DNA of 64,000 nt from Acidithiobacillus thiooxidans ATCC 19377 (GTDB lineage Bacteria; Pseudomonadota; Gammaproteobacteria; Acidithiobacillales; Acidithiobacillaceae), in assembly GCF_009662475.1 (NCBI RefSeq), contig NZ_CP045571.1, forward strand, positions 1,858,501-1,922,500, in the 5' to 3' direction. Under the pieces are notes generated by a model. The model worked only from the letters and a program-made list of their open reading frames with translations, made no database searches and was not told the DNA's origin. How positions within the stretch are numbered: position 1 is the stretch's first letter; every line of letters starts with the position of its first letter. Shown here in pieces: positions 1,006 through 34,626 of the stretch. Both the position numbers and the translations under genes were made by a program.

Positions 1006-1017
1006 AAGGAACAAAAA

Positions 1018-1566
1018 TTGAATCCCAACATTCCTGATCTACAAAATATTATGGAAACCGAAAAGAAAATGTTCGGTAAATATTTGGTTCCTGTAGCTAT
1101 CTTATTAATCATTATCGGGATATTTGGAATTTTAAGCCCAATTATTCTTTCTGCAGTCACCGATGGCATTATTGCAGCTATGCTGATTATTGCCGGATTC
1201 ACCTGGATTGCGCACAGCATCCAGATGCACCAGCATCAAATGGCTGACTGGCTGAAACCCTTACTGCTTTTTATCACTGGGGGCATCATGATTGCCTTAC
1301 CGAAAGCAGGAATTGCGGCAATTGGTTTGATGTTCGTTCTGTATTTCATCATTGATGCCTACCGAAATTTCACGCAAATGAAAATCTATCCGGGACATGG
1401 TCGGGGCTGGTCCATTTTTAGTGGTATTATCGACATTTTCATTGCCCTTCTCTTCGTGGTCACCTGGCCTCGGGGTTCATTGATCCTGGTCGGCATATTT
1501 GTCGGCGTCAACTTGATATTTGATGGGATCATCCTGCTGATGTTGCGCAATGTAAAACCCGGATAA
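1018..1566 (+). CDS. HdeD/DUF308-family membrane protein
   Basis: A 182-residue, very hydrophobic protein with about six predicted membrane helices in three hairpins (roughly residues 22-60, 75-110 and 125-175). The repeated pattern of a hydrophobic hairpin followed by a short charged loop fits the HdeD/DUF308 family. E. coli HdeD contributes to acid resistance at high cell density; this link is family knowledge and is not shown here. The start is TTG at 1018, preceded by AAGGA at 1006-1010 with 7 bases spacing; an ATG at 1051 is an alternative. It lies 12 bases after the phosphorylase stop. Confidence 0.75.
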   Translation: MNPNIPDLQNIMETEKKMFGKYLVPVAILLIIIGIFGILSPIILSAVTDGIIAAMLIIAGFTWIAHSIQMHQHQMADWLKPLLLFITGGIMIALPKAGIAAIGLMFVLYFIIDAYRNFTQMKIYPGHGRGWSIFSGIIDIFIALLFVVTWPRGSLILVGIFVGVNLIFDGIILLMLRNVKPG

Positions 1567-1616
1567 ACAGTATATTGCACAAATTTTAGGCAATCAGTAA
1601 TCTTTTTTTATTTTAT

Positions 1617-2459
1617 TCATTTGCGGAACGTCCAATATCCGTGGACTGGATTACGGAAAGTTTGTGCCCACAGATAACTCCGTGCGCAGAGACTTTCCCA
1701 GCCATTCCTGACCTCTCTTTGTAGACGTCGCCAGAATGGCCGCGATGATCGGTGCTCCGCAGACCAACCGCGCTCTTGAATAATGGATGGCAGCTTCACA
1801 TCAATAGAAACCAGAGCAGGTTCAAGAACCAACATGCGCAATCCATGCAACCAGTATTGATCCATCATCTTATCTACTGCGTCACGCATTTTTTCAGTAT
1901 GTTTAAGTAGTACCTTGGCGGCGTCTGGTCGTATCAGATAGGCAGCGGTTCCCTGTGGCTGTCGAACATAACGCATCAGTCGAAATTCATTATTCACGCG
2001 AAGATATAGCTTACCTTGCCGATCCCAACGTTCACTCATCAGACGCAAAATATCCCACTCCCCAGCAGTATCTATGGCGAGCGCAATTTTTTCAACAAAG
2101 TTGGGCCCTAGCACTACATCATCCTCAAGAATACACCAAGCCACATCATCTGATTGTGCGCATTGTTGCCACAATGAACGGTGACTCATAAAACACCCAA
2201 CTTCGCCCGGGGTCATTTCATATCCGAAATATTTTTTTCGGTACGTTTGATCATAAGAATTGGGGTAATCAGCAATGTGTCTAGGTGCACAAGCTTCAAA
2301 CAAATTTAAATGTACCTGCAAACGCCTGGCTTCTGCTGAAATATGATGACGGCGTTCAGGGTGACTCGCCATGGAAATCACATGAATGGGAGGCATACAT
2401 TTCTTCAAAGAAACGATCATTCCCCCAGTTTTGATGTTCATACTGTTATTCCTAACCAT
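1617..2459 (-). CDS. Glycosyltransferase family 25 (LPS-type sugar transferase)
   Basis: A 280-residue soluble protein of the GT25 family, which transfers galactose or glucose to lipopolysaccharide cores or surface glycans. Family features seen are an N-terminal IHVISMASHPERR strand, the GEVGCFMSHRSLW block near residues 84-96 and the acidic ILEDDVVL motif near residue 111 (DxD-like metal/nucleotide site). ATG at 2459 is preceded by AAGAGG seven bases upstream. It overlaps the stop of the sulfotransferase gene by 8 bases (ATGGTTAG), so the two are probably translated from one mRNA. An internal ATG at 2441 is a less likely start. The acceptor sugar cannot be told from sequence. Confidence 0.85.
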   Translation of the reverse strand: MVRNNSMNIKTGGMIVSLKKCMPPIHVISMASHPERRHHISAEARRLQVHLNLFEACAPRHIADYPNSYDQTYRKKYFGYEMTPGEVGCFMSHRSLWQQCAQSDDVAWCILEDDVVLGPNFVEKIALAIDTAGEWDILRLMSERWDRQGKLYLRVNNEFRLMRYVRQPQGTAAYLIRPDAAKVLLKHTEKMRDAVDKMMDQYWLHGLRMLVLEPALVSIDVKLPSIIQERGWSAEHRSSRPFWRRLQREVRNGWESLCARSYLWAQTFRNPVHGYWTFRK

Positions 2460-3393
2460 AAATCAACCTCTTCAGGAAGCTTCCTCGCCGTTTCCAGTGA
2501 TAATCGCTTTCTGCATCGAGCTCTTCAAGAATACTTTGGTAACGTTGGTATTCTTCATAACATTCCGCCCATAGTACCCACTGGGCGACACTTTCATTTT
2601 GTTTTATGGCAGTTAGAATATGATATATTTTATCGAGTAATGGTAGCATATTTTTGGCATATTCTTCATCATTAAGCGCAACGGAATGATGTCTTAGGGA
2701 TTGACTTAAAAACTGTTCAACATAAATTTTGAGTTTATTCTCGTCTATGGAACGTGCCAGATGTAAAGAGATTTTTTCCAGAACAAGTGCTGGCTGTTCC
2801 AACAAATCATCATATGAAATAAAAACGTGAGGATAATTTTTAATATGCGGTAAAAATGGTAAGGTATATGCCGCCCACATCAACTGGCCTCTCGTAAGGG
2901 AGATACCATTGCGCTTTTGCAGCGATAGCGCCACCGCATAAGGGTGTCGTAGGGCGACGACAAACTGAAGATTAACCCCTGACTGTTCTGCAGCATGCAG
3001 CCAGAAAGGCAAAACTCTTAAAGTTCTCGGATCTTTGAATCCCCACATGGTGTATTGATCCGCGCGATTGATCAATAACTTCTCAGCCTGATCATGGAGA
3101 TCTTTCAGCGCCGTACCTAAAAAAAGAGCTTCCGGAACAATCCGGGTGTCATTCCAGGCAATATTTAAACGTTCAAGAACTTCCTTGTTGATGCGCAAAA
3201 CCTCGGCATCTTCCCAGTAGCCTCTCGGATTATCTTCACCGGGCGCAATCAAAGCATCCCCCATATTGAGCCCCAAACACTCCAGACCTTTGGCAATAGC
3301 ACTTGTACCACTTCTATGCATGCCGATGACCGTTACGATACTTCTCTGAATTGGTTGGCCGCTGGGAGCATGCTCCAAAAACTCATCAATCAC
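2452..3393 (-). CDS. Sulfotransferase-family protein
   Basis: The product has a PAPS-dependent sulfotransferase fold. The 5'-phosphosulfate loop VIGMHRSGTSAIAKGL lies near the N-terminus, and the RHPYAVALSLQKRNG segment resembles the 3'-phosphate binding block. The reading frame opens at a TTG at 3441, but GTG at 3393 has AAGAGG seven bases upstream and starts just before the conserved fold, so I chose it (about 313 residues). The gene is the promoter-proximal partner of the GT25 gene, which suggests sulfation of a surface glycan or lipid. The pair is visibly more A+T-rich than the flanking core genes by eye (not computed), so transfer is possible. Substrate unknown. Confidence 0.8.
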   Translation of the reverse strand: MIDEFLEHAPSGQPIQRSIVTVIGMHRSGTSAIAKGLECLGLNMGDALIAPGEDNPRGYWEDAEVLRINKEVLERLNIAWNDTRIVPEALFLGTALKDLHDQAEKLLINRADQYTMWGFKDPRTLRVLPFWLHAAEQSGVNLQFVVALRHPYAVALSLQKRNGISLTRGQLMWAAYTLPFLPHIKNYPHVFISYDDLLEQPALVLEKISLHLARSIDENKLKIYVEQFLSQSLRHHSVALNDEEYAKNMLPLLDKIYHILTAIKQNESVAQWVLWAECYEEYQRYQSILEELDAESDYHWKRRGSFLKRLIYG

Positions 3394-3617
3394 TATATAA
3401 CCTCTTATATGCTGTAACGTTTTATATAAAAAGCTCCACAAACATATGGTCCACCTGAAAACAGGCTAAAGTCCCAGTTTTCAGCGCTCAGTGTAAGGTC
3501 TCAAGGCCTCTCCAGATAAGACATGGCCGTAATAAAAATTGTTAAGAAATATGAAAATCCATTTTTATAGAACAAACGAAGTTCGGTTTATAAAATATAA
3601 AAAAATTCGTATATGCT

Positions 3618-3623
3618 TATAAT
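3618..3623 (+). promoter_or_regulatory. Possible -10 element for the GlsB/YeaQ-type gene
   Basis: A perfect TATAAT lies 64 bases upstream of the ATG at 3687, within an A+T-rich 290-base divergent gap between the sulfotransferase and small membrane protein genes. No good -35 box sits 16-18 bases upstream (the sequence there is ATATAA). The call rests on the -10 match and context only. A TTGACA at 3650-3655 has no partner at the right distance. Confidence 0.3.
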
Positions 3624-3686
3624 GACCTGGAAACACGTTATGTGTTAGTTTGACAAGACGATATTACAAATAGAGAGGATTGAACC

Positions 3687-3944
3687 ATGTTAATGAACAT
3701 TATTGTTTTTCTCATCGTCGGCGGAATCGCTGGCTGGCTGGCTGGATTGCTCATCAAAGGCCGGGGGTTTGGCATTATCGGAGACATCATTGTCGGCATC
3801 ATCGGTGCTTTCATCGGTGGATTCGTCCTGACGACGATTGGCTTGATTGGTCTTTTTGGGGCGGGCATTATCGGTGCCATTATTGTTGCCTTTATTGGTG
3901 CCATTATTCTTTTGTTTATCGTCAAGCTCATCAAAAAACTCTAA
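3687..3944 (+). CDS. GlsB/YeaQ/YmgE-family small membrane protein
   Basis: An 85-residue, glycine- and isoleucine-rich protein with three membrane helices and the GGIAGWLAG start typical of 'transglycosylase-associated' (GlsB/YeaQ/YmgE) proteins. Members are often stress-induced (stationary phase, acid or general stress) but have no proven biochemical role. ATG at 3687 follows AGAGAGGA at 3672-3679 with good spacing. The antiporter gene starts only 13 bases after the stop, which suggests a two-gene transcript. Confidence 0.8.
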   Translation: MLMNIIVFLIVGGIAGWLAGLLIKGRGFGIIGDIIVGIIGAFIGGFVLTTIGLIGLFGAGIIGAIIVAFIGAIILLFIVKLIKKL

Positions 3945-3957
3945 AAAATAAAACGTT

Positions 3958-5772
3958 ATGAACATCATGCTGATTCTGGCTGGGCTGGTTATTTTGGGCG
4001 CGGCCAGCCAGTGGCTGGCATGGCGGGTCAAACTACCCGCCATTATATTTCTTCTGGGTATTGGCATTATTGCCGGCCCGGTCACCGGCTGGATTCAACC
4101 GGACCAGCTATTTGGCCCTCTCCTGTTTCCCGGTATTTCTTTAGCAGTAGCCGTAATACTGTTTGAGGGCGCGCTGAATTTACGCCTGCGAGAACTGGGC
4201 GGCCTCGCCTCGGTCATTCGCAGAATGGTCAGCCTGGGGGCCATCAGCAGTTGGCTGATACTGGCGGTAGCTACTCACTGGATTGCGGACTTTAACTGGA
4301 CCATGGCAATCCTCTTTGGTGCAGTTGTGGTGGTTTCCGGACCCACCGTCATCGGCCCGGTGTTAAGGGCAGCCAGACCCAATGCGCGTATCAGTAATGT
4401 ATTAATGTGGGAGAGCATACTCATTGATCCCATTGGGGCCTTGCTGGCCGTTCTGGTTTTCGAAGCTATTATTGCCCATCACGGCTCCACTGGACTCAAT
4501 TCTGCCGTTGAAGTTTTTCTAAAAATGCTTGGTGCAGGTGTTGTTTTAGGAATTTTAGCTGGTCAAAGCCTGGGATGGTTACTCAAAAAAAGAGCTATCC
4601 CCGATTATCTGCATGGCGTAGTGGCATTGGGTAGTGTTTTTATTATTTTTGCTGCAGCCAACCAAATCGCCCACGAATCCGGACTACTTGCTGTCACCCT
4701 GATGGGTGTATGGCTTGCTAATATGCGCGATATCCCCTTGGAAAATATTCTTAATTTCAAAGAAAGTCTCTCTATTTTATTAATCTCCATTCTTTTCATT
4801 CTCCTCGCTGCGCGCCTGAATCTGCTGGCCTTGAAAGAAGTCATCATCTCCGGCGTACTGCTCACGCTGGTTATTCAACTGATCGCCCAGCCTGTCAAAG
4901 TGTTACTGGCTTACGATGGCAAGGAACTGAACTGGAAAGAAAGATTCATGACCGGATGGATCGCCCCGCGCGGAATTGTCGCAGCAGCAGGCGCCCCCGT
5001 ATATGCCGGGCAACTGGAAGCACTGAATTATCCCAAGGCCCACTTGTTTGTGCCTCTGACTTTCGCATTGATCATTGTCACCGTACTCCTGGCCAGTTTT
5101 ACGGCGCGTCCCATGGCAAGGCTTCTGGGTGTCTCTGAAAAAGACCCTCGTGGCATTCTTATTGTGGGGGCCAACGCATTTGCCATCGCCGTTGCTGGAA
5201 AACTCAAGGAATGGGGGTTCCGGCCACTTTTGGTGGATGATGAATATCGACAAATCCAGGCGGCACGCATGGCAGGACTGGATACTTTTTTGGGTAGCCC
5301 GGTTTCAGAAGCCGCCGATCGTCAACTCAACCTGATTGGATTTGGTTATCTGCTGGCTCTATCCACCGATGCCGCCCGTAATCTGATCGCCTCACTGCGT
5401 TATGATCCCGAATTCGGTCATCGTTCTGTGTTTACCCTGGCCGATGGCAGCAGTCGCAAAACCAGTGCCCGCAACCGCACGGCAAAACAACATAGACGTC
5501 TTCATCTTTTCAGTGAAGACGCTACCGCTGGTTCTTTGCTGGATAAAATGGAAAAGGGCTGGACCCTGAAAGCAACCGGCCTGACTGAGCAGTTTGAATG
5601 GGTACAATACCAGCAACAATTTACTGCAGGCTTTCTGGCATTATTTGTACTGCATAAAAATGGAAAACTGCAAGTTATAAACAGTGACCAAAGCCAGCCT
5701 GAACCGCGTGCTGGCGATCAGATTCTGGCTCTGGTTGCACCTGACGTAGCTCCCACTGAAGATGCCCACTAA
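3958..5772 (+). CDS. CPA-type Na+(K+)/H+ antiporter with C-terminal TrkA-like nucleotide-binding domain
   Basis: A 604-residue inner-membrane cation/proton exchanger. Residues 1 to about 390 hold about 12 hydrophobic segments of the NhaP-like exchanger fold, with acidic residues in SILIDPIGALLAV as expected for transport. Residues about 396-515 form a Rossmann-like TrkA-N/RCK domain (GILIVGANAFAIAVAGKL) that binds nucleotide and gates the channel in relatives. A short TrkA-C-like tail (GDQILALVAPD) follows. The role is probably pH or cation homeostasis, which fits an acidophile but is inferred. The ATG is 13 bases after the upstream small membrane protein gene. Confidence 0.88.
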   Translation: MNIMLILAGLVILGAASQWLAWRVKLPAIIFLLGIGIIAGPVTGWIQPDQLFGPLLFPGISLAVAVILFEGALNLRLRELGGLASVIRRMVSLGAISSWLILAVATHWIADFNWTMAILFGAVVVVSGPTVIGPVLRAARPNARISNVLMWESILIDPIGALLAVLVFEAIIAHHGSTGLNSAVEVFLKMLGAGVVLGILAGQSLGWLLKKRAIPDYLHGVVALGSVFIIFAAANQIAHESGLLAVTLMGVWLANMRDIPLENILNFKESLSILLISILFILLAARLNLLALKEVIISGVLLTLVIQLIAQPVKVLLAYDGKELNWKERFMTGWIAPRGIVAAAGAPVYAGQLEALNYPKAHLFVPLTFALIIVTVLLASFTARPMARLLGVSEKDPRGILIVGANAFAIAVAGKLKEWGFRPLLVDDEYRQIQAARMAGLDTFLGSPVSEAADRQLNLIGFGYLLALSTDAARNLIASLRYDPEFGHRSVFTLADGSSRKTSARNRTAKQHRRLHLFSEDATAGSLLDKMEKGWTLKATGLTEQFEWVQYQQQFTAGFLALFVLHKNGKLQVINSDQSQPEPRAGDQILALVAPDVAPTEDAH

Positions 5773-22083: not shown

Positions 22084-25000
22084 TCAGGCGGGACGCCGGG
22101 TCTTGCGCTGTCCACGTTCCAGAGGAATCACATTATTTACCAGCGAAGTGGCAGCACGGTACGTCCACTGCCATTGATATCCCTCGGGCATATGCGCCTG
22201 CAGTGCCGCCAGGGCTTCTTCACTCGCCACAAAACTTAAGCTTTCCGGAACTTTTAACAGCACCTGCAGGTCATTGTCCACCGGTAAACGCAGGAGCAGA
22301 CGCACAGAGCCCGGATATTGCTGAAGCCAGTCACGCAAAAGCTCGGGAGCCAGCGACTCACCCTGAGGAATTTCCACGGTCAATTGTGTTGCCAACTCAT
22401 CACGAGCCCGCTGGCGATCCAGCACCCGCAGGGCGCTGAGTCGCAGACCACCGGAATAGCTGTCTTCGCCGACCTCACCCAGGACCAGCACGGGTTCTTC
22501 CCCTTCTCCGATTTTTCCCGCCTGGGCCCAGACTTCGGCAAATACCACGACCTCCAGACGCCCTACACCATCATCCAGGGTCAGAAAATAAATACGATCG
22601 CCCCTTTTGGTACGGGTGCTGCGCCGCGCCACCACCAATCCGGCAACCAACATAACGGTTCCCACCACAATATTGCTCAACGGCTGCACACCCAGCTCGG
22701 CGAGTTCCACACGGAGATCATCCATGGGATGACCACTGAAATAAAAGCCCAGGGTTTCCCGTTCCTGACGCAGTATTTCTGTGGATGTCCACAGCTCAGC
22801 ATGACTAATAGGGGGGGCGACAGGTAATGCTTCCAGTCCGTCAAAAAGGGACTCCTGCAGACTGGCCTGGCTTTGCTGAAATTGGGCGGCTGCTTCAATG
22901 GCGCTTTCCAGAGAAGCCATCAGGTCCGCTCTGGACACCTGCCAGTCATCCATGGCGCCGGCCCGAATCAAGGCCTCCAGCGCGCGGCGATTGATTTTTT
23001 GGCTATCTACCCGACAAAGCAGGTCAAAGAGGCTCTGGAAAGGACCTTCTTTACGCGCTTCCAGAATACTATGAATCGCCGCCCGTCCCAGGCCCTTGAT
23101 CGCCCCCAGACCAAAACGGATATCCTGCCTGCCTTCGGGTTTAAACTCCAGACCACTGCATTGCACGCTGGGCGGGGCAATGCGCAGGCCCATGCGTTGA
23201 CATTCGGCGATCATCGCCACGACCTTGTCGGTATGGTCCATATCTGCAGTCAGAACCGCCGCCATGAAAAACTGGGGATAATGGGCCTTGAGATAAGCCG
23301 TCTGATAGGAAACCAGAGCGTAGGCCGCAGAATGGGATTTGTTGAAACCATATTCCGCAAATTTTTCCATCAGATCGAAGATAGCTCCTGCCTGATCGGG
23401 ATGCAGGCCATTTTTATGTGCGCCCTCCAGAAAAATACTGCGTTGTTTGGCCATTTCTTCGGGTTTTTTCTTGCCCATGGCGCGGCGCAGCAAATCGGCA
23501 CCCCCCAGGGAATAGCCTGCCAGGACCTGCGCCGATTGCATGACCTGCTCCTGATAAACAATAACGCCGTAGGTTTCCTTGAGGATGGGTTCGAGATTGG
23601 CGTGCAAATAACTGACCTGGGCCTTGCCATGCTTGCGAGCAATAAAATCGTCCACCATGCCCGACTGCAAAGGACCGGGACGAAACAGGGCCACCAGGGC
23701 GACAATATCCTCAAAAGTATCGGGTTGCAGACGCCGCACCAGATCACGCATGCCCGATGATTCCAGCTGAAACACGGCCACGGTTTCCGTGGATTTCAGC
23801 AGTGCAAAAGTGTCTGGATCATCGAGCGGGAGTTGCTGAATATCCAGGGGCGCAAGGTCCTCCGTGACGGCAGCGGCATTAATGAGTTTTACCGCCATAT
23901 CAATAATGGTCAGGGTGCGCAGACCCAAAAAGTCGAATTTGACCAGACCCATTTTTTCGACATCATCCTTGTCGAGCTGGGTCACATTACCACCACCACC
24001 AGAACTGTCCGTAAATAGCGGTAAACGATCCGCCAGCGGCTCTGGAGAGATGACAACCCCCCCCGCATGGGTGGAGGCATGGCGCGGCAACCCTTCCAGA
24101 CGCAAGGCAATATCCAGAAGATCGCGTACGTCGTCTTCTTCGGTCTGGCGGCGCCGCAACTCTTCGGATTCTTCCAGGGCTTTGGCCAGGGTCATGCCCA
24201 AATCACCGGGCACCAGCTTGGCGAGCTGGTCCACAAACCCGTAGGGCAGTCCCAGCACCCGGCCAACGTCCCGGACTACCGCCCGCGCCTTCATGGTTCC
24301 AAAGGTAATGATCTGACCAACCCGTTCGCGGCCATATTTTTCAGCGACATACTGAATGACCCGGTCGCGCTGATCCATACAGAAATCCACGTCAAAATCG
24401 GGCATGGAAACCCGTTCAGGATTCAGAAAGCGTTCAAAAAGCAGGCCATTGCTGATCGGATCGAGGTCGGTAATCCCCAGGGCATAGGCCACCAGAGAAC
24501 CGGCGCCCGAACCACGTCCGGGTCCGACTGGAACCCCGTTATTCTTGGCCCATTGGATAAAGTCCGCCACAATCAGAAAATAACCGGGGAAACCCATTTG
24601 CTGGATCACCCCCACTTCACGCAGCAGGCGTTCATGGTAAGGCAAGCTGCCTTCAGCCCGAATCCCCAGGGCATTCAGACGCACCTGCAACCCTTTCTGA
24701 GCCGCTTCATGCAGATATTCATCCACAGACTGACCCTCAGGAATGGGATAATCCGGCAAGGCGTATTGGCCCAGCACCAACTCCAGATTACAGCGTTTGG
24801 CAATTTCTACCGTGTTGTCACAAGCTTCGGGTAAATCCGCAAAAAGTGTCCGCATTTCCTCTGGATCCGGTAAACGGTGTTCGGCGGTAAATCGTCGCGG
24901 CCGACGTGGATCATCCAGGGTCAGCCCTGCAGAAATGCATTGACGGGCATCAAAAGCGGCAAAATCGGCGGCATCCAGAAAATGGGCATTATTGGTAGCC

Positions 25001-25590
25001 ACCACCGGCAAATCCAGCTTTTCGGCCAGCCCGAGGGTTGCTTGCAGCAGACTTTCCTGATCTTTTTCGCCATTCCGTTGCAGTTCCAGATAAAAGCGTT
25101 CGGGAAACCAGTCTGCATAGCGTTTTGCCAACAGTTCAGCCTGCGCATGATCGCGGCGCAGCAAAGCCCGACCGATTTCACCCTGCCCCGCTGCGGAAAG
25201 GGCAATTAATCCATCACTGGCCTGCTGCAACCATCCGGCGGCAATTTGCGGGCGGCCCTGCTGATGTCCCTCCAGATAGGCGCGACTCAACAGACGGCTG
25301 AGATTGGCGTAACCGGTTTTGTTCATGCACAACAAAATCAGGCTGGCGGGGCGATCTGCATCGCCCTCATCGTGGACCCAGATTTCACTCCCGATCAGTG
25401 GTTTCACGCCCTGACTGCGGGCGGCGTTATAAAACTTCACCAGAGCAAAAAGATTACCGTGATCCGTAATCGCCACTGCCGGCATATTTTTTTCGGCACA
25501 GCGCTTGGCCAGCGCCTTGACCGGAATAATGCCATCCTCCAGCGAATATTCGGAATGCACATGAAGATGGACAAAAGTCGGTTCACTCAC
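22084..25590 (-). CDS. dnaE: DNA polymerase III subunit alpha
   Basis: The replicative polymerase (1168 residues from GTG 25590). This start is chosen because GGGAGG lies seven bases upstream, the GTGA overlaps the rnhB stop, and the protein then begins SEPTFVHLHVHSEYSLEDG, the conserved PHP opening. The C-family catalytic motif PDFDVDF is at residues 397-403 and GPGRGSGAGS at 357-366. A helix-hairpin-helix region and an OB fold (around VLVAGLVVARRSTRTKRG) follow. The longer frame to 25647 is not needed. Confidence 0.96.
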   Translation of the reverse strand: MSEPTFVHLHVHSEYSLEDGIIPVKALAKRCAEKNMPAVAITDHGNLFALVKFYNAARSQGVKPLIGSEIWVHDEGDADRPASLILLCMNKTGYANLSRLLSRAYLEGHQQGRPQIAAGWLQQASDGLIALSAAGQGEIGRALLRRDHAQAELLAKRYADWFPERFYLELQRNGEKDQESLLQATLGLAEKLDLPVVATNNAHFLDAADFAAFDARQCISAGLTLDDPRRPRRFTAEHRLPDPEEMRTLFADLPEACDNTVEIAKRCNLELVLGQYALPDYPIPEGQSVDEYLHEAAQKGLQVRLNALGIRAEGSLPYHERLLREVGVIQQMGFPGYFLIVADFIQWAKNNGVPVGPGRGSGAGSLVAYALGITDLDPISNGLLFERFLNPERVSMPDFDVDFCMDQRDRVIQYVAEKYGRERVGQIITFGTMKARAVVRDVGRVLGLPYGFVDQLAKLVPGDLGMTLAKALEESEELRRRQTEEDDVRDLLDIALRLEGLPRHASTHAGGVVISPEPLADRLPLFTDSSGGGGNVTQLDKDDVEKMGLVKFDFLGLRTLTIIDMAVKLINAAAVTEDLAPLDIQQLPLDDPDTFALLKSTETVAVFQLESSGMRDLVRRLQPDTFEDIVALVALFRPGPLQSGMVDDFIARKHGKAQVSYLHANLEPILKETYGVIVYQEQVMQSAQVLAGYSLGGADLLRRAMGKKKPEEMAKQRSIFLEGAHKNGLHPDQAGAIFDLMEKFAEYGFNKSHSAAYALVSYQTAYLKAHYPQFFMAAVLTADMDHTDKVVAMIAECQRMGLRIAPPSVQCSGLEFKPEGRQDIRFGLGAIKGLGRAAIHSILEARKEGPFQSLFDLLCRVDSQKINRRALEALIRAGAMDDWQVSRADLMASLESAIEAAAQFQQSQASLQESLFDGLEALPVAPPISHAELWTSTEILRQERETLGFYFSGHPMDDLRVELAELGVQPLSNIVVGTVMLVAGLVVARRSTRTKRGDRIYFLTLDDGVGRLEVVVFAEVWAQAGKIGEGEEPVLVLGEVGEDSYSGGLRLSALRVLDRQRARDELATQLTVEIPQGESLAPELLRDWLQQYPGSVRLLLRLPVDNDLQVLLKVPESLSFVASEEALAALQAHMPEGYQWQWTYRAATSLVNNVIPLERGQRKTRRPA

Positions 25591-26189
25591 TGCTTTGCCT
25601 CCCAGGCTTGATCCACCGGACCAAAACCACGTCGATGCAGCGGACAAGGTCCATATCGCTGTAATGCCTGCATATGGACTGCGGTTCCATAACCCATGTG
25701 CCGGGCCAAGCCATAATGCGGATAATAAGCATCCAATACCTGCATGGTCTGATCTCTCGCCACCTTGGCGAGAATACTGGCCGCTGCAATAGCATCTACC
25801 CGACCATCACCGCCCACCAGAGTCTCAACCTGCCAGCCCGGCGGTGACTGGTTACCATCCACAACAACAAGCTCCGGACGCACTGGCAGGGCAGCAATAG
25901 CCCGGGACATGGCCCGTAAAGAGGCCTGTAAAATATTGTAGCGCTCAATTTCCCACACTGCCGCCCAGCTCAACGACCAGGCCCGCGCTTCCTGCCGAAT
26001 TCTGGCAGCCCATTGCAAGCGAGCCTTGGCGGTCATTTTCTTGGAGTCATTCAGGCCGTACAGAGGTTCACGCAAAATCACCACCGCCGCAATGACCGGC
26101 CCCGCCAGCGGACCACGACCGGCTTCATCCACACCCGCGCACGAGGGGCCCCAGTGTTCCAAAACCGGAGATCTTCTGGCTGTACTCAT
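25587..26189 (-). CDS. rnhB: Ribonuclease HII
   Basis: Ribonuclease HII removes ribonucleotides and RNA primers from DNA duplexes. It has about 200 residues with the catalytic pattern GVDEAGRGPLAGPV (Asp and Glu of the DEDD site), VDGNQ, and AAASILAKVARD further on. ATG 26189 is preferred over the TTG at 26195. It overlaps dnaE by four bases (GTGA), and 41 bases separate it from lpxB upstream. Confidence 0.94.
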   Translation of the reverse strand: MSTARRSPVLEHWGPSCAGVDEAGRGPLAGPVIAAVVILREPLYGLNDSKKMTAKARLQWAARIRQEARAWSLSWAAVWEIERYNILQASLRAMSRAIAALPVRPELVVVDGNQSPPGWQVETLVGGDGRVDAIAAASILAKVARDQTMQVLDAYYPHYGLARHMGYGTAVHMQALQRYGPCPLHRRGFGPVDQAWEAKQ

Positions 26190-26230
26190 TCTCAATTATT
26201 CATGCCACTTGCCATTTCTAGATTTACCAG

Positions 26231-27358
26231 TCATAAAAGCATTTTCCGCAAAACCTGTTGCAACGCCTCTGCGGAATCCCCCTGCAACAAGTCACGTATC
26301 TGCTTCAGGCGCTGAACTTGTTTATGACCGGCATCGGTAAACAAGGGTAACAGAGCTGCAGCGACTTGTCCGGGTTTAAAGGCATCCTGCAAAAACTCCG
26401 GATAAACAGACTCCTTGAGTAAAATATTGGGCATGGCCACAAAAGGGGTTTTAACCAGGCGCCGCGCAAAAGCGTAGGTCAGCGCATTCAGGGCATAAAC
26501 CACTACCGCCGGACGTTCCATCAGTGCGGTTTCCAGGGTCGCCGTTCCGGAAGCCACCAGTACCACATTGGCGGCTGACAGTACCGTGCGGGTTTGGGCA
26601 ATAACCACCAGAGCATCACAGGGGCCTGCTCCCTGTTCCCACTGATGCTTCCAGGCCGACGCCAGTTCATCACGAGCCAGAGCCACGACAATTTTCAACC
26701 GGGGCATCTGCTCGCGCAGCAAACTTGCGGTTTGCGCATAACGGCGGGAAAGTTTTTCCAGCTCACCACGCCGGCTGCCGGGCAGCAAGGCGAGCACCTG
26801 ATCATCCGCCGCGAACCCCAGAGCCGCCCGAGCAGTCAAACGATCAGGTGCAGCAGTAGTCTGTGCCAGCAAAGGATGGGCCAGAACCTGCACCGGAACA
26901 CCGGCTTCGGCATAAATGGGAACTTCGAAGGGAAAAAGCACCAGCATTTGATCAACAATCTGCTTGATTTGATGAATGCGCTGCCCGCGCCAGGCCCAAA
27001 TCTGCGGCCCCACCACATAAAGAACGCGAATGCCCAGTGCCTTGGCAGCCTTGGCAATGCGCATATTGAATGCTGGGTGATCAATCAGAATGACACAAGT
27101 GGGCCTTTCATTTTTCAGGTGCGATACAACCTGATGATACAGTCGGCGTAGCGCCCCATAATGGCGCAGCACCTCAACCAGACCGATGATGGCAAGTGGT
27201 TCCCCGTCGGCAATATTTTCAACGCCGGCGGTCTGCAAACGCGAACCCACTACTCCTGACCAATGTAAATCCAGACCAGCAGCAGTCGCATTTTCCATGA
27301 TTTCCAGTCCGAGATTTTCTCCGGAACGCTCTACAGCAAGGATAAATACCTTGCCCAA
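26231..27358 (-). CDS. lpxB: Lipid-A-disaccharide synthase
   Basis: A GT19 enzyme that joins UDP-diacyl sugar and lipid X to the lipid A disaccharide at the inner membrane. It has 375 residues (E. coli LpxB has 382). Family blocks include VGPQIWAWRGQRIHQIKQ, LPGSRRGELEKLSRRYAQ and LVASGTATLETALMERP. The usual N-terminal GExSGD motif reads ERSGEN here, and the loop IDHPAFN (Asp93) keeps the first aspartate of the E. coli IDAPDFN motif but not the second. TTG 27358 has AAGGA eight bases upstream. Its position right after gnnB suggests it may have adapted to amide-linked substrates. Confidence 0.88.
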   Translation of the reverse strand: MGKVFILAVERSGENLGLEIMENATAAGLDLHWSGVVGSRLQTAGVENIADGEPLAIIGLVEVLRHYGALRRLYHQVVSHLKNERPTCVILIDHPAFNMRIAKAAKALGIRVLYVVGPQIWAWRGQRIHQIKQIVDQMLVLFPFEVPIYAEAGVPVQVLAHPLLAQTTAAPDRLTARAALGFAADDQVLALLPGSRRGELEKLSRRYAQTASLLREQMPRLKIVVALARDELASAWKHQWEQGAGPCDALVVIAQTRTVLSAANVVLVASGTATLETALMERPAVVVYALNALTYAFARRLVKTPFVAMPNILLKESVYPEFLQDAFKPGQVAAALLPLFTDAGHKQVQRLKQIRDLLQGDSAEALQQVLRKMLL

Positions 27359-27362
27359 CGCT

Positions 27363-28472
27363 TTAATCCTTCAGCGTGCGGCGAATCACCTCTGCCACCC
27401 GGGCAACCTGCGCCTCTTGCAGCTCGGGAAACATGGGCAAGGACAAAACCCGCTCGGCCAGATTGTCCGCTACTGGACAATGGCCTTGAGGCTGATCACC
27501 AAACATTTTCTGGCGATGGCCGGGAATGGGGTAGTAAATGGCGCTGGCAATCTGCTCAGCCTGCAAGGCGGCTTTTACCGCATCCCGACCTTCCAGCTGA
27601 ATCGTATATTGGTGGTATACATGCTGATAAGCTTCTGGTGCATGGGGTAACTGCAGATCCAGGCCCGCCAGATGCTCGGCATACCAGGCAGCAGCCCGCT
27701 GACGACCCGCATTAAAAATAGAAAGATGCGGAAATTCCGTGCGCAAAATCAATGCCTGCATTTCATCCAGACGACTGTTATAACCCAGTACATCATGATG
27801 ATAAGTCTGCCATGAACCATGATTGCGCAAGCCCCTTAATTGTTTTTCCAGTTCCGGATCATTGGTCACCACCATGCCGCCATCACCAGCACCGCCAAGA
27901 TTTTTGCTGGGGAAAAAGGAAAAACAGCCGATATCACCAAAGCTTCCCACCGCACGCCCATGAATACTGGCCCCAATAGCCTGAGCACAATCTTCAATGA
28001 CCTTCAGATGATACTGTTGCGCCAAAGACATGATAGCGGGCATATCGGCAGGCAGGCCATAAAGATGCACTGGAATAATGGCTTTTGTGCGGTCGGTGAT
28101 GGCCGCTTCAACAAGTGACGCGGTCAGCACATAATTTTGCGGGTCCACGTCTACAAAGACCGGCTTTGCCCCCACGTAAAGGACCGCTTCTGCCGTAGCA
28201 ATAAAGGTGAAGGTAGGCACAATGACTTCATCCCCCGGCCCAATCCCCAAAGCACGCAGAGCCAGCAACAATGCATCTGTTCCCGACGCACAGCCTACCC
28301 CATGGGCTACGCCACAAAGTTGGGCCACATCTTGTTCCAGAGCACGACCGTGTTCACCGAGAATAAAACCCGCCTGATCCAGAATTTTTCCCAATCCGGC
28401 AAGAATTTCTTCACGCAGTGGCTGAAAATGCGCGCGCAAATCGACCATGGGAATGGCTGTACTATAACTCAT
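27363..28472 (-). CDS. gnnB: UDP-GlcNAc-3-ulose aminotransferase (DegT/DnrJ/EryC1/StrS family)
   Basis: A 369-residue PLP aminotransferase of the sugar-nucleotide type. The DegT fold shows GTDALLLALRALGIGPGDEV, the EDCAQAIGA motif, and FFPSKNLGGAGDGGM, where Lys190 is the PLP-binding residue. In A. ferrooxidans, GnnB aminates the 3-keto sugar made by GnnA to UDP-GlcNAc3N using glutamate. The assignment rests on family plus position: it lies between lpxA and lpxB beside a Gfo/Idh oxidoreductase. Without that context it would only be called a sugar aminotransferase. Its stop is 4 bases before the lpxB start. Confidence 0.85.
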   Translation of the reverse strand: MSYSTAIPMVDLRAHFQPLREEILAGLGKILDQAGFILGEHGRALEQDVAQLCGVAHGVGCASGTDALLLALRALGIGPGDEVIVPTFTFIATAEAVLYVGAKPVFVDVDPQNYVLTASLVEAAITDRTKAIIPVHLYGLPADMPAIMSLAQQYHLKVIEDCAQAIGASIHGRAVGSFGDIGCFSFFPSKNLGGAGDGGMVVTNDPELEKQLRGLRNHGSWQTYHHDVLGYNSRLDEMQALILRTEFPHLSIFNAGRQRAAAWYAEHLAGLDLQLPHAPEAYQHVYHQYTIQLEGRDAVKAALQAEQIASAIYYPIPGHRQKMFGDQPQGHCPVADNLAERVLSLPMFPELQEAQVARVAEVIRRTLKD

Positions 28473-28520
28473 GTATTGATATCCTGTTTAGAAATTCATT
28501 CACTGGGTCTGGCCCATCCC

Positions 28521-29462
28521 TCATCGGGAAAGAAAACCATCCACCGCCTTGCGTACTTGCAGTGCTGCCGCCAATACCCGGCGACCCGCCATACCATCAC
28601 AAAATACCGGAGATTGACGCAGCACCGCACCCAGAAAATCTTCAATTTCTGCGGCCAGGGCATCGGTTTTAGCCAAATTGACGGCTTCATCCCGAACACC
28701 GGGAATACCTGGCACGGCGCCTTCTCCGCGATGGTAAATGTGCAGGGTATTCTGGATAAAATCCACAGAAGCGTAACGGTCCTGCCAGAAAATCCGCAAG
28801 CGCCGGGCCGGTTCGCGAACCACCCGGGAGGCCGCAAGGTTCGCCACGGTACCGTTACTGAGAGTAATCCAGGCATTGGCCATGTCGGCCTTGTCGGTCA
28901 CCGCAGCAACGCCTACCGCGCGCACATCAACAGGTTCGGCCTCGGTCAACAATAAAGTCAGATCAAGATCATGAATCATGAGATCCATGATGACATCAAT
29001 ATCCAGAGAACGGGGCTTGAACGGTGCCAGACGCTCTGCCTCCAGGTAACGCGGGGCGCCATAACCCGCCTGACGCAAATAGCGAATGGCTGGATGCACT
29101 CTTTTGATATGCCCCACAGCCAGAACCAGTTGACGTTCCTGAGCCAGGGCAATCAGGGCGTCTGCTTCCGGAATATCCAGCGTGAACGGCTTTTCAACCA
29201 GGCAATGCACTCCCGCACGCAGTGCTTCTTCAGCAACCTCATGATGGGTTGAAGTTGGGGTCGCTATGGATATGGCCTCTACTGAAGCCAGCAGCTCAGG
29301 AATACTGGCAAAAGCCCGACAGCCCAGTTCCCGGGCCACTTCAGCAGCACGATCGGGATTGGCGTCATAAATGCCTTGCAGATCGGACAAATTGGCATAT
29401 TTCTGGGCATGAAAACGACCCAGATGACCCACACCGATCACGGCTGTTTTGAGATTTTTCAT
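28521..29462 (-). CDS. gnnA: UDP-GlcNAc 3-dehydrogenase (Gfo/Idh/MocA family)
   Basis: A 313-residue NAD-dependent sugar oxidoreductase. The Rossmann motif GVGHLG is at residues 10-15, and the family signature EKP is at 90-92 within CLVEKPFTLD. HDLDLTLLL provides the substrate-site histidine. GnnA oxidises the 3-OH of UDP-GlcNAc to a ketone, which GnnB then aminates, giving lipid A with amide-linked acyl chains at positions 3 and 3'. ATG 29462 overlaps the lpxA stop (ATGA), so production is coupled to LpxA. 48 bases separate it from gnnB. Confidence 0.85.
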   Translation of the reverse strand: MKNLKTAVIGVGHLGRFHAQKYANLSDLQGIYDANPDRAAEVARELGCRAFASIPELLASVEAISIATPTSTHHEVAEEALRAGVHCLVEKPFTLDIPEADALIALAQERQLVLAVGHIKRVHPAIRYLRQAGYGAPRYLEAERLAPFKPRSLDIDVIMDLMIHDLDLTLLLTEAEPVDVRAVGVAAVTDKADMANAWITLSNGTVANLAASRVVREPARRLRIFWQDRYASVDFIQNTLHIYHRGEGAVPGIPGVRDEAVNLAKTDALAAEIEDFLGAVLRQSPVFCDGMAGRRVLAAALQVRKAVDGFLSR

Positions 29463-30241
29463 GGTCGGGTAATTCCGCGCTTGCTGTTCTGGATGAAGTC
29501 CAGCAAATGGGCGATTTCCGGGGCATCAAGACCGCGCTGGCGCACCTCTTCCATAGCATCATCCAGTCGTTGCCCGGAACGGAACAAAATCCTGTAAGCG
29601 CGTTTGATTTGCAAAATGGTCTCGCGGGAAATGCCACGCCGAGCCAGACCACGCACATTAATTCCATGAAGACTGGCATGGTTCCCGGCAGCCATCATAT
29701 AAGGTGGAATATCCAAAGGTGCCATGGTCCCCCCACCCAAAATGGCATGTGAACCTATGCGTGCAAATTGATGTACGGCAGAAAGGCCGCCCAGAATGGC
29801 ATGATCTTCAATGCAGACATGTCCGGCCAGAGTCGCCGCATTGGCCATCACCACCTGATCGCCGATGCGGCAGTCATGCGCCACATGACAATAGGCCATG
29901 AGCAGATTATGGCTACCAATCCGCGTAACACCGCCCCCCTTTACCGTGCCGCGATTCACCGTCACGAATTCCCGCAAGGTATTGTGCGAACCGATTTCCA
30001 GTGCCGTAGGTTCGCCCTGGTAACCTAGATCCTGAGGAGCTGTCCCCACTGAAGCAAACTGAAAAATATGATTATGGCTGCCTATCCTGGTCGGACCTTC
30101 CAGTACCGCATGCGCACCGATCTGACAATGAGCGCCCAGCTCGACGTGAGCACCAATCACTGCGTAAGGACCAATTTTACAATCGGCACCCACAATAGCA
30201 CCTGAATCAACAATGGCCGTAGGGTGAATATCCCTAGTCAT
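29459..30241 (-). CDS. lpxA: UDP-N-acetylglucosamine (or GlcNAc3N) acyltransferase
   Basis: A left-handed beta-helix acyltransferase that starts lipid A synthesis (260 residues; E. coli 262). Hexapeptide repeats run from residue 5 to about 180 and a helical tail follows. The catalytic histidine is His122 in HVAHDC, matching E. coli His125. With gnnA/gnnB next door the acceptor is probably UDP-GlcNAc3N. Near residue 170 the sequence is LGGGTMAPLDIPPYM, unlike the VGGCSGVAQDVPPYV of E. coli (recalled), which may bear on acceptor choice. ATG overlaps the fabZ stop by four bases. Confidence 0.94.
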   Translation of the reverse strand: MTRDIHPTAIVDSGAIVGADCKIGPYAVIGAHVELGAHCQIGAHAVLEGPTRIGSHNHIFQFASVGTAPQDLGYQGEPTALEIGSHNTLREFVTVNRGTVKGGGVTRIGSHNLLMAYCHVAHDCRIGDQVVMANAATLAGHVCIEDHAILGGLSAVHQFARIGSHAILGGGTMAPLDIPPYMMAAGNHASLHGINVRGLARRGISRETILQIKRAYRILFRSGQRLDDAMEEVRQRGLDAPEIAHLLDFIQNSKRGITRP

Positions 30242-30687
30242 GGAGCGGTTTCCCGAAGTGTCGCCATCAACAGGGCCGAAGCCACCTCATGACCATCCAC
30301 CAATGCCTGGGTTTCCATTTGCCACATTCCCGAGCGACGCCGGCTGACGTTAGCCAGCAGTTCCAGGCGATCGCCTGGAGTGACCGGTTTGCGAAAGCGG
30401 GCTTTATCAATACCGGCAAAATACACAGCAGCATTTTCACCATATTTATCTTCCGAAACAAAAGCCAGTAGAGCAGCAGCCTGGGCCAGGGCTTCAATAA
30501 TCAAAACCCCTGGCATGACGGGCATAGCCGGAAAATGTCCCTGAAAAAAGGGCTCATTTATAGTGACATTTTTGATCGCACGCAATGATTTCCCTACTTC
30601 CACATGCAGCACACGGTCCACCAGCAAAAAAGGATAGCGATGCGGTAATCGCTTCATAATATCCTGAATATTCAGTTCACTCTCCAT
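30238..30687 (-). CDS. fabZ: 3-hydroxyacyl-ACP dehydratase
   Basis: A hot-dog-fold dehydratase of the fatty acid elongation cycle (149 residues). The catalytic pair is His51 in [14 protein letters not shown] and Glu65 in [11 protein letters not shown]. FabZ competes with LpxA/LpxD for 3-hydroxyacyl-ACP, so the shared operon balances phospholipid and lipid A synthesis. The ATG lies within the last codons of lpxD (11-base overlap). Confidence 0.96.
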
Positions 30688-31741
30688 GAAATGGCTCTCC
30701 GTCAGTTGATGCTTGGTGCGCAGAATTTTTTTCCAGATTTTTTACCCGCCGAAATAAGGTATCCAGCCCGTCAAAGCGGGCAACAATGCGCCGCCATCGC
30801 GTAATTTCATGGGCAGGGACCACTCCCGAATAAACCCCCGGGCTGCGTAACGAATGGGTAATAGCACTTTGTCCGGCAATCACGCAGTTATCCGCTATTT
30901 CAACATGGCCGGTAATGCCAACCTGCCCGCCAATCCGGCAATGGCTGCCAATACGGGTACTGCCTGCTATTCCCGTTTGGCCGGCAATAACGGTATGCGC
31001 GCCTATTTGTACATTATGGCCGATTTGTACCAGATTATCGATCTTGACCCCGTCGGCAAGGATCGTATCGGTCAGAACACCACGATCAATACAGGTATTG
31101 GCACCTATCTCCACATCATTGCCAATCAGTACCCCGCCTATCTGGGGAATTTTCAGATATTTTCCGTTTTCTTCCGCAAACCCAAAACCATCGGCACCAA
31201 TGACCGCACCCGCGTGGACAACACACCGTTCGCCAATGCGGCAACCAGAGTAGATTTTCGCACCCGGATAAACATGGGTGCCCGCCCCTATCTGAACGTC
31301 AGCGCCCACAAATACCCCTGCCTCAAGCCAAACTCGGGCCGCGATCTGTGCCCCCGCCTCCACCTTGACGAAAGCATCCATGCGTACCTCAGGATGGATC
31401 TGTACATTCCGATCCAGTTGAGCGCTGTGATGAATACCCGGTTCAGATCGGGCCACAGGAAACAGGTACTGCATGGTTTTAGCAAAAGCCGCATAGGGGT
31501 TTTTGACAACAATGCAGTGCCCAGAAAAATCATCAGCAAATTCAGAACTGAGGATAACAGCACCAGCCTGACTGGACTGCAAACAGCTGCGCAGGCTGCT
31601 CGCCTGGAAAAAAGTAATATCCCCAGCCTCGGCAGTATCCAGAGGTGCCATGCCGGTAATCAGATATTCCGCATCACCGCGTACTTCTCCAGCAATGTGT
31701 TGTGCCAGATCCTGAAGGCGATGTGCGCTGGCTGCCCTCAT
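30677..31741 (-). CDS. lpxD: UDP-3-O(N)-(3-hydroxyacyl)glucosamine N-acyltransferase
   Basis: The second acyltransferase of lipid A synthesis (354 residues). An N-terminal uridine-binding domain (residues 1-100) precedes hexapeptide repeats at about 105-310, with His242 in [12 protein letters not shown] as the catalytic base (E. coli His239). The C-terminal helix carries [23 protein letters not shown] 31741 overlaps the skp stop by one base (TAATG). If GnnA/B are active, its substrate is the 3-amide-linked monoacyl UDP-diamino sugar. Confidence 0.95.
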
Positions 31742-32289: not shown

Positions 32290-34626
32290 TCAGAAGTTAT
32301 TACCCACAGTGAACTGCAGGGGTTGGGTAAGGTCTCCCGGCTTTTTGTCCAGAGGAATTGCCAGAGACAGACGCAGAGGCCCGAGAGGACTGATCCACAG
32401 AAAGCCTACGCCAGCTGTTGTCCGCATCTCACCCAGACTGGGGAAATAACTCGTACTGTTCGCACCGCCGAGATAAGACTGCACCCCATAAACCCAACCG
32501 CTGGCGGCAAACAGAGACATCCGGAAATTATGGTTATCTTCCAGACCTGGTAACGGAAAGTACAAACTGGCGTTAAACAATAATTCTCGTGTGCCTCCGA
32601 CGGGATAACCATCAATTTGTTCGCCCAGGGAATATGTCTGGTAACCCGGCAAGGTCGTGGGGCCACCCAAATAGTAGTTATTAAAGAAAGGAACTGGTTT
32701 GCCACCATAACCGTTTATGAAACCATATCGCCCGCTGAGCCCGCCGGTTAACCAGGAGGTAATGGGATGATAATAGTCAGCCTTGACTTCGGCCTTGTAC
32801 CATTTCAGTTTTCCCGGAGGAACAGCCGCTTTCAGATCCAGGCTGCCATAAAACCCCTTGGTCGGAAATATGGGCGAGTTGCGGCTGTCATAAACGAGGC
32901 TATTACCTACAGTGACAGCGCTGGCCGTATTCCCGAAAGTATTTACGTAAGAATTATAAATTTGCGTGCTGTCTGAAGTCAGATTAATAGTTGTATTACT
33001 GTAGCCCAAGGACATATAGTCATAGACATACTGCATGATGGGTATGCCCAGCGTACCCGTAGCGCCATAGTCAATTTCCTGATAGGGCGCAACAGCAAGG
33101 CTGGAAAGATTGGTATCATTCCGATAAAGATTAACACCCAGACTGATACCATCCGGAGTAAAATAAGGATCAGTATAAGATAGGTTGAATGCTGTGCCCA
33201 AACCGCCCACGTTGGCCGAAAAAGACAGCGCATTTCCAGTACCCATGAAATTGTTCTGGCTGATGGAACCATTGAACAAAATACCCTGCGCATTGGAGTA
33301 ACCCACACCCAGGCTAAAACTGCCAGTTGGCCGCTCACTGACATGCACATCCAGATTCATCTGATCAGGATGACCGGGAACCGGAACCGTTTTAGTATCG
33401 ATTTTATCGTAAAAACCGGTCTGCTGGAGCCGCTCCTTGGAACGCCTGATCTGCGCACCATTATAAAGAGATCCTTCCATCTGCCTGAACTGACGCCGGA
33501 CTACATAGTCACGACTGCGATCATTGCCGGTAATTTCAATGCGGCGAATGTATACTTTGCGCCCTGGGTCCACTTCAAAATTCAGTGCTACCTCGCGGGT
33601 TTTTTCATCTACCGTCGGCACCGGTGTGGTATTGGCAAAAGCATAGCCCAGATCACCCAGCTTGTTGGCAATGGCACTGTTAGTGTCGTTGATTTTTGCC
33701 CGGGAAAACACTTCGCCGGGATGGATTTCAACCAGTTTTTCCAGCTCTGGCTTGGGAATCACCAGATTCCCCGTCAAATTCACCGACTTCACATGATAAA
33801 CCGGTCCTTCATGCACATTGACCGTAATATAGACAAAACGACGATCTGGTGTGACCTGTACCTGATTGGATTCAATATCAAAATTCAGATAGCCGCGATC
33901 CAGATAGAAATTGTGCAGGGCTTCCAGGCCCTTCATCAATTTTTCCTGAGAGTAACGATCATTTTTAGTAAAAAATGAAAAGGCGTCAGGGGCACCAATA
34001 TCGAAAAGGCCACGCAAACGACTTTCACTGAAAGCGTGATTGCCGACTATGGTCACCTGCTTGATAGTAGCCTGCTCTCCCTCGTTGGCATCCAGATAAA
34101 TAGCTACGCGGTTACGTGGGAGTTTATCCACCTTGGCATGAATTTTCGCATTATAATAACCCATGCCCTCATACTGCTGCTGCAGCCCATGTACGACCTC
34201 GTCAAGCAGGGACTGATTGAAAATATGGCGGTCCACCAGACCGATGCCTTTCAGGGTTCCTTCCACTTCTTTTTTGGAAAAGGCCTTGATGCCGTGCGTC
34301 TTGATGCTGGCAATGATCGGACGTTCCTGGACGACCACCAGCAAATTGTCATCCGAGCGGGCGATAGTTACGTCCTTGAAAAAACCAGTAGAGTACAGAT
34401 CTTTAATCGCCTGCTGCGCTTTCTGGTCATCTACTTCTTCCCCGATATGGATGGGCAGGTAGTTATAGACCGTTCCAGGAGCAATGTGCTGCAATCCTCT
34501 TATCTCTATGTTTTTAACAGTGAAGGGTGTAAATGCCCAGGCTGGAGCCGTCCAAACGGCCGCCAAACAGGCAATACCCGAGGCAAGAACCAGAGGCGAA
34601 GGTGAAGTCAGGCTGAATTTTTTCAC
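32290..34626 (-). CDS. bamA: Outer membrane protein assembly factor BamA
   Basis: The central subunit of the BAM complex, which inserts beta-barrels into the outer membrane (778 residues). A signal peptide (residues 1-31, ending APAWA) is followed by five POTRA domains (about 33-435) and a 16-strand barrel. The protein ends TVGNNF with a terminal phenylalanine, as expected for a BAM substrate. ATG 34626 overlaps the rseP stop by four bases. The neighbours Skp and RseP act in the same pathway. Confidence 0.96.
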   Translation of the reverse strand: MKKFSLTSPSPLVLASGIACLAAVWTAPAWAFTPFTVKNIEIRGLQHIAPGTVYNYLPIHIGEEVDDQKAQQAIKDLYSTGFFKDVTIARSDDNLLVVVQERPIIASIKTHGIKAFSKKEVEGTLKGIGLVDRHIFNQSLLDEVVHGLQQQYEGMGYYNAKIHAKVDKLPRNRVAIYLDANEGEQATIKQVTIVGNHAFSESRLRGLFDIGAPDAFSFFTKNDRYSQEKLMKGLEALHNFYLDRGYLNFDIESNQVQVTPDRRFVYITVNVHEGPVYHVKSVNLTGNLVIPKPELEKLVEIHPGEVFSRAKINDTNSAIANKLGDLGYAFANTTPVPTVDEKTREVALNFEVDPGRKVYIRRIEITGNDRSRDYVVRRQFRQMEGSLYNGAQIRRSKERLQQTGFYDKIDTKTVPVPGHPDQMNLDVHVSERPTGSFSLGVGYSNAQGILFNGSISQNNFMGTGNALSFSANVGGLGTAFNLSYTDPYFTPDGISLGVNLYRNDTNLSSLAVAPYQEIDYGATGTLGIPIMQYVYDYMSLGYSNTTINLTSDSTQIYNSYVNTFGNTASAVTVGNSLVYDSRNSPIFPTKGFYGSLDLKAAVPPGKLKWYKAEVKADYYHPITSWLTGGLSGRYGFINGYGGKPVPFFNNYYLGGPTTLPGYQTYSLGEQIDGYPVGGTRELLFNASLYFPLPGLEDNHNFRMSLFAASGWVYGVQSYLGGANSTSYFPSLGEMRTTAGVGFLWISPLGPLRLSLAIPLDKKPGDLTQPLQFTVGNNF

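Follow-up and report, generated by a model that had tools for sequence, protein, structure and literature searches.

Genes gnnA and gnnB within the lpx operon of Acidithiobacillus thiooxidans: a very probable GnnA/GnnB branch of lipid A synthesis and its distribution in the Gammaproteobacteria

Why should genes for an oxidoreductase and an aminotransferase lie between lpxA and lpxB in an acidophile? The question is raised by a 64,000-nucleotide stretch of the Acidithiobacillus thiooxidans ATCC 19377 genome (contig NZ_CP045571.1, positions 1,858,501 to 1,922,500; hereafter "the window"), on the minus strand of which gnnA and gnnB are inserted exactly between lpxA and lpxB, in a block at 26231-30241. 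We conclude that this block is very probably the GnnA/GnnB branch of lipid A synthesis, in which UDP-N-acetylglucosamine (UDP-GlcNAc) would be converted to the 3-amino sugar nucleotide UDP-GlcNAc3N, nitrogen taking the place of one sugar oxygen. A preliminary description of this DNA had given the same coordinates and the order lpxA-gnnA-gnnB-lpxB, and both were borne out by open reading frame coordinates and family matches. The four genes are as follows.

29459..30241, minus strand: lpxA, first acyltransferase; NCBIfam TIGR01852, 350.9 bits (cut-off 231)
28521..29462, minus strand: gnnA, predicted UDP-GlcNAc 3-dehydrogenase (Gfo/Idh/MocA), 313 aa; PDB 7bvj/7bvk, E=5e-166; PF01408
27363..28472, minus strand: gnnB, pyridoxal 5'-phosphate (PLP) aminotransferase (DegT family) predicted to make UDP-GlcNAc3N, 369 aa; PF01041, 408.6 bits
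26231..27358, minus strand: lpxB, lipid-A-disaccharide synthase, TTG start; NCBIfam TIGR00215, 265.5 bits (cut-off 190)

The earlier assignment of the two inserted genes to a Gfo/Idh oxidoreductase and a DegT aminotransferase agrees with the matches of their products to GFO_IDH_MocA (PF01408, E=2.3e-28) and DegT_DnrJ_EryC1. GnnA carries at residues 90-92 the sequence EKP, a motif of Gfo/Idh proteins. Its best PDB match is 7bvj/7bvk, with the next solved Gfo/Idh chain far off at 1.7e-17, and it is 81% identical over 311 aa to 7bvj, which we take to be the GnnA of A. ferrooxidans (structure reportedly by Manissorn 2020). Comparison with that enzyme, suggested earlier as a check, thus came out in favor of the identification, and together with the shared genus it upholds the view that this is an A. 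ferrooxidans-type GnnA/GnnB arrangement. The identity of 7bvj is itself supported by its 100% identity over 311 aa to the GnnA of a second Acidithiobacillus genome (G007) and by PMC10509195, whose reference list includes a structure paper on A. ferrooxidans GnnA. The nearest named GnnAs are those of Acidithiobacillus sp. HP-2 (98%), A. concretivorus and A. sulfurivorans (97%), and a bin labelled A. ferrivorans (96%), and the genome has a single GnnA match at E<=1e-3. On this similarity the window GnnA is a full-length orthologue of the structurally solved Acidithiobacillus GnnA, and oxidation of UDP-GlcNAc at C3 is its predicted reaction.

GnnB is a full DegT aminotransferase with the PLP lysine, K190, in the sequence PSKNLGG. 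No other DegT match in the genome is full-length: three more pass the Pfam cut-off of 19.8, at 28 to 34 bits, and span 56 to 125 of the 360 profile positions. Several results weigh against naming the pair so specifically. Among the NCBIfam models matched, none is named for a bacterial GnnA or GnnB; for the archaeal UDP-GlcNAc 3-dehydrogenase model the score is 160.6 bits against a cut-off of 450. The best equivalog score of GnnB, 247 bits for PseC, lies under the cut-off of 423.5, and the scores for the other sugar aminotransferases, ArnB-type (220/631 bits) and WecE (187.5/434.9 bits), are likewise below theirs. Furthermore, the best solved match of GnnB, 7b0d (E=6.8e-109), is labelled glutamine--scyllo-inositol transaminase, so that the substrate of GnnB rests on context.

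That context is strongly conserved. GnnA is present in 30 of the 31 genomes of the order, the sole miss being a genome 71% complete. At these 30 loci gnnA follows lpxA in every case, gnnB follows gnnA in 29, and lpxB comes next in 27, the missing neighbors belonging to loci that end at a contig end (L090, L097, and L110; such labels for loci, genomes, and contigs are our own). Within the genus, gnnA followed lpxA in 17/17 genomes searched, and two of the 30 genomes with GnnA (G029 and G030) belong to the second family of the order, presumably the Thermithiobacillaceae, judging from the taxonomy of the order. Because the lpxA-gnnA-gnnB-lpxB arrangement is kept across the order, it is not due to chance, and gnnB, directly after gnnA, is coupled to it both here and in 29/30 order loci. 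The junctions had been called overlapping or tight; as read from the bases, lpxA/gnnA is a 4-nt overlap with a shared ATGA, gnnA-gnnB a 48-nt gap, and gnnB-lpxB a 4-nt gap; coordinates give a further 4-nt overlap for fabZ/lpxA.

On the minus strand of the window the wider gene order is dxr-rseP-bamA-skp-lpxD-fabZ-lpxA-gnnA-gnnB-lpxB-rnhB-dnaE-accA-tilS, in which dxr, rseP, dnaE, accA, and tilS were assigned by Pfam and lpxA, lpxB, fabZ, lpxD, bamA, and rnhB each scored above an NCBIfam equivalog cut-off. The genes nearest the block, which give its operon context, are listed here.

32290..34626, minus strand: bamA; NCBIfam TIGR03303, 844 bits
31741-32277, minus strand: skp; weak NCBIfam match (E=1.2e-6), below cut-off
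30677..31741, minus strand: lpxD, second acyltransferase; NCBIfam TIGR01853, 365.9 bits (cut-off 242.5)
30238..30687, minus strand: fabZ; NCBIfam NF000582, above cut-off
25587..26195, minus strand: rnhB; NCBIfam NF000595, above cut-off
22084-25647, minus strand: dnaE, downstream of rnhB; Pfam DNA_pol3_alpha and PHP

Elsewhere in the window, the GC content falls to 0.444 in positions 1-4000, most 4-kb windows having 0.51-0.55; a family 25 lipopolysaccharide glycosyltransferase lies there (1617-2459). A 328-aa open reading frame at 19-1005 on the plus strand matches only positions 482-579 of a 713-position carbohydrate phosphorylase model and is perhaps a fragment.

How far does the branch extend beyond the order? 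At a threshold of E<=1e-25, which we chose, GnnA was found in 73 of 185 genomes sampled from the class, with 72 of the 73 matches at 1.3e-52 or better; the 112 GnnA-negative genomes comprise 20 listed individually and 92 known from the count alone. Counting a gene as at the lpx locus when lpxA, lpxB, rnhB, or fabZ lies <=2.6 kb away, a definition under which contig ends can hide neighbors, we found gnnA-gnnB at the lpx locus in 30 genomes, gnnA there without an adjacent gnnB in 17, gnnA-gnnB away from it in 16, and gnnA alone away from it in 10. In 70 stretches read outside the order, one genome (G131) matched the direct gene order of the window and another (G150) did so with ~0.87 kb extra between lpxA and gnnA, while in 10 (L148, L152, L155, L169, L172, L174, L177, L195, L198, and L211) the whole gnnA-gnnB-lpxB block was inverted between lpxA and rnhB. 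The three genes also stand together at the lpx locus in uncultured Gammaproteobacteria (L034, L048, L053, and L058). Named carriers of adjacent gnnA-gnnB include Endozoicomonas, Aliikangiella coralliicola, and Salinisphaera sp. G21_0; the Aliikangiella pair is at the lpx locus, and the stretches examined from Endozoicomonas and Salinisphaera showed no lpx gene beside theirs.

The 27 genomes having gnnA without an adjacent gnnB, 17 of them with gnnA at the lpx locus, form a class that includes contig-end cuts and cases in which gnnB lies further off (L153). Among the 22 of these that were searched, 20 had a DegT protein (E<=1e-20) elsewhere and none was found in G160 or G122; the idea of an enzyme lacking its partner was dropped. 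In four loci from Deltaproteobacteria and Proteobacteria bins (L037, L038, L039, and L044) the order is lpxA, a gene of ~0.85 kb, a gnnA-like gene, and lpxB, and gnnB was not detected; the intervening gene of L037 encodes LpxI (PF06230 and PF17930).

These distributions bear on the explanation that gnnA and gnnB provide a 3-amino sugar nucleotide for some other glycan, whether core, O-antigen, or capsule, in the manner of WbpB/WbpE, their position in the lpx operon being incidental. WbpB/WbpE, of the UDP-GlcNAc3NA branch for O-antigen, belong to the same two superfamilies and share 3-oxidation and 3-transamination, GnnB matches the structures of WbpE (3nyu, E=1.3e-88) and QdtB (3frk, E=4.4e-89) well, and 26 of the 73 GnnA-positive genomes, some of them cut by contig ends, are those noted above with gnnA away from the lpx locus. 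WbpB/WbpE differ, however, in using a uronic acid substrate, whereas 7bvj is by far the nearest solved Gfo/Idh chain to the window GnnA; gnnA is invariably placed right after lpxA across the order; and the genome is without a second full-length DegT match. We regard such an incidental placement as very improbable and retain the assignment of the block to lipid A synthesis.

The same survey addresses the suggestion, made in the preliminary description, that amide linkages suit an acidophile. An adaptive account of this kind, in which amide linkages were selected for resistance to acid hydrolysis, gains from the occurrence of the cluster in 30/31 genomes of a mostly acidophilic order. It is opposed by GnnA in 73/185 genomes of the class, by its presence in named genera known as marine, and by its presence in G029 and G030, whose presumed family, the Thermithiobacillaceae, is neutrophilic. 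We consider acid adaptation unlikely. With GnnA so widespread in the class the acidophile rationale is not needed and is not supported as a cause, and the GnnA/GnnB pathway is a general lipid A variant rather than a signature of acidophiles.

What lipid A, then, would the block produce? On the enzymology of A. ferrooxidans, and with the chemistry inferred for the window species, GnnA would oxidize C3 of UDP-GlcNAc with NAD+, GnnB would transaminate the resulting ketone to give UDP-GlcNAc3N, and the neighboring LpxA would add a 3-hydroxyacyl chain to the new amine, so that position 3 (and 3') would bear its primary chain as an amide; LpxC, LpxD, LpxB, and LpxK would act as usual afterwards, and one LpxC and one LpxK are encoded elsewhere in the genome. 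Since the pair is of A. ferrooxidans type and in the same genus, we expect UDP-GlcNAc3N to be made and at least a part of the lipid A to be of the 2,3-diamino kind. The preliminary description went further, to four amide-linked chains, and this is overstated. Two LpxL/LpxM-family proteins are present in the genome, a strong match at 207 bits and a weak one at 44.5 bits (above cut-off), and the secondary chains added by this family are normally ester-linked, which makes an all-amide lipid A unlikely. Sweet et al. reportedly found in 2004 that A. ferrooxidans makes ester-linked as well as amide-linked lipid A and that its LpxA takes UDP-GlcNAc slowly. With such a mixture and ester-adding LpxL/LpxM proteins, ester-linked 3-hydroxyacyl chains, once proposed as a refutation, would be compatible with the pathway. 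The lipid A of the window species is likely to be diamino for the most part but not entirely, its secondary chains being linked by esters.

The proportion of amide would depend on LpxA, of which the window genome has one at E<=1e-25. At that threshold a second LpxA occurred in 24/73 GnnA-positive and 0/112 GnnA-negative genomes (Fisher p=1.4e-11, relatedness not controlled), with no LpxA match at all in 5 of the 112. Some LpxA candidates were unscored in a few genomes, and a repeated search of the three GnnA-negative ones among these (G113, G191, and G200) gave no second LpxA at E<=1e-25, G200 having a 24% match at 2.4e-9. One genome, G149 (6% contamination, two lpx operons, and the weakest GnnA match), is kept in the 24/73 and left out of the residue and clade counts, and the operon copy of G099 was reassigned by hand from the "second" to the "operon" class. 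On these terms, the 23 second LpxAs and L025 form one clade in a midpoint-rooted tree (FastTree support 0.96). A profile of 20 clade members (19 of the 23 second copies and L025) finds 3hsq as its best PDB match (334 bits; next 309), while with a single second LpxA as query 3hsq ranks only seventh. All 20 scanned copies of the clade match NCBIfam LpxA models (E<=1e-20), and the one with scores shown exceeds both cut-offs; present annotation would therefore probably label the second copies plain LpxA. No survey of second LpxAs in Gammaproteobacteria was found in the literature on GnnA/GnnB, Acidithiobacillus GnnA, Leptospira LpxA, and Legionella lpxA2, a search that most subscription papers lay outside.

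Individual loci show further arrangements of LpxA. At G123:C73:11779-11991, directly after gnnA-gnnB, what is probably a second LpxA begins (42% identity, E=3.3e-15) and is cut off by the contig end; G123 was counted as a single-LpxA genome, and its operon LpxA keeps K76 and E200 (E. coli numbering). In L166 (G057) and L192 (G202) gnnA lies between two different LpxA genes of the same operon, in the order lpxA-gnnA-lpxA2-lpxB, with no gnnB detected alongside and DegT proteins (E<=1e-20) elsewhere in both genomes. In Aliikangiella coralliicola (L026 9300-10940) a tandem lpxA pair, both copies of which fall outside the second-LpxA clade, adjoins an inverted gnnA-gnnB-lpxB block, and in G153 (L333 3523-6226) genes for a FabA-like dehydratase and a beta-ketoacyl synthase follow immediately downstream of a second LpxA.

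The single LpxA of the window has L75, G76, L116, and R200, with G173 kept. Matching positions in 3hsq, which we take to be the Leptospira interrogans LpxA selective for UDP-GlcNAc3N, are L75, G76, and V200, and the window LpxA is predicted to N-acylate UDP-GlcNAc3N. K76 and E200 are together kept in 47/52 LpxAs of GnnA-negative genomes (drawn, from 107 such genomes with LpxA, from the better-scoring part of the list rather than at random), in 17/23 operon LpxAs of two-LpxA genomes, and in 1/23 second LpxAs. Among single LpxAs of GnnA-positive genomes, read in 42 of 49 genomes, both residues are kept in 9/42 and one or the other is lost in 33/42, K76 being kept in 21 and E200 in 10. Other observations count against this signature. 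Of the 16 single-LpxA genomes that have gnnAB at the lpx locus, 11 keep K76, and both second-family genomes of the order are among these; positions 76 and 200 were chosen post hoc from the same data; and 15 phylogenetically independent pairs gave loss only in the GnnA-positive member in 5, the reverse in 0, both kept in 6, and both lost in 4 (p=0.06). The association being strong by counts and weak after phylogenetic pairing, the signature is a lead and not proof. The contrast between the groups is sharper at positions 116 and 104 than at 76: 12% of single GnnA-positive LpxAs keep the residue, versus 24% at 200 and 50% at 76. Position 116 was dropped as a clean marker because E. coli itself has L116. 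Two further candidates were abandoned: His99 to Asn, Asn being usual in GnnA-negative LpxAs too (38/52), and Y120 (E. coli N120), found in 51/52 of them.

These residues also bear on whether the window species makes a true hybrid lipid A, with a large share of position-3 chains ester-linked and an LpxA that also uses UDP-GlcNAc, a refinement of the assignment above and not exclusive of it. The reported mixture in A. ferrooxidans and its slow use of UDP-GlcNAc speak for it, as does the fact that the single LpxA must serve leftover UDP-GlcNAc; the loss of both K76 and E200 from the window LpxA suggests instead a preference for the amine substrate, and we view a large ester-linked share as possible but somewhat doubtful. 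Returning to the class as a whole, we tentatively propose, at a little short of even likelihood, that Gammaproteobacteria commonly make diamino lipid A and do so by two acyltransferase solutions, a dedicated second LpxA beside an ordinary operon LpxA (hybrid and controllable) or a retuned single LpxA (as in the window, at position 200 and partly 76), the choice setting the amide-linked share. A precedent for the two-LpxA idea is Capnocytophaga canimorsus, in which, according to PMC3342949, lpxA and lpxA' occur with gnnA and gnnB and the backbone is a GlcN3N-GlcN hybrid.

The feature in the window is, then, the already known A. ferrooxidans GnnA/GnnB pathway in a sister species. GnnA and GnnB make GlcN3N in A. 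ferrooxidans (PMC8036547, PMC3342949), and their two reactions are given in PMC5644692. The window shares with that system (Sweet, Ribeiro and Raetz 2004) the genus, a GnnA of 81% identity, and gnnA after lpxA, and differs from it by species-level divergence only, with no functional difference visible in the sequence. C. canimorsus shares gnnA and gnnB, with GlcN3N in its lipid A, but has two lpxA genes and the hybrid backbone, whereas the genome of the window has one LpxA, and its gnnAB are part of the lpx operon. The window itself adds little beyond a firm annotation and the correction of two over-readings, four amide chains and acid adaptation. More broadly, the class survey suggests that Gammaproteobacteria may have 2,3-diamino lipid A more often than one would judge from the species studied, and the residue signature and the second-LpxA clade offer testable predictors of which organisms would make pure and which hybrid lipid A.

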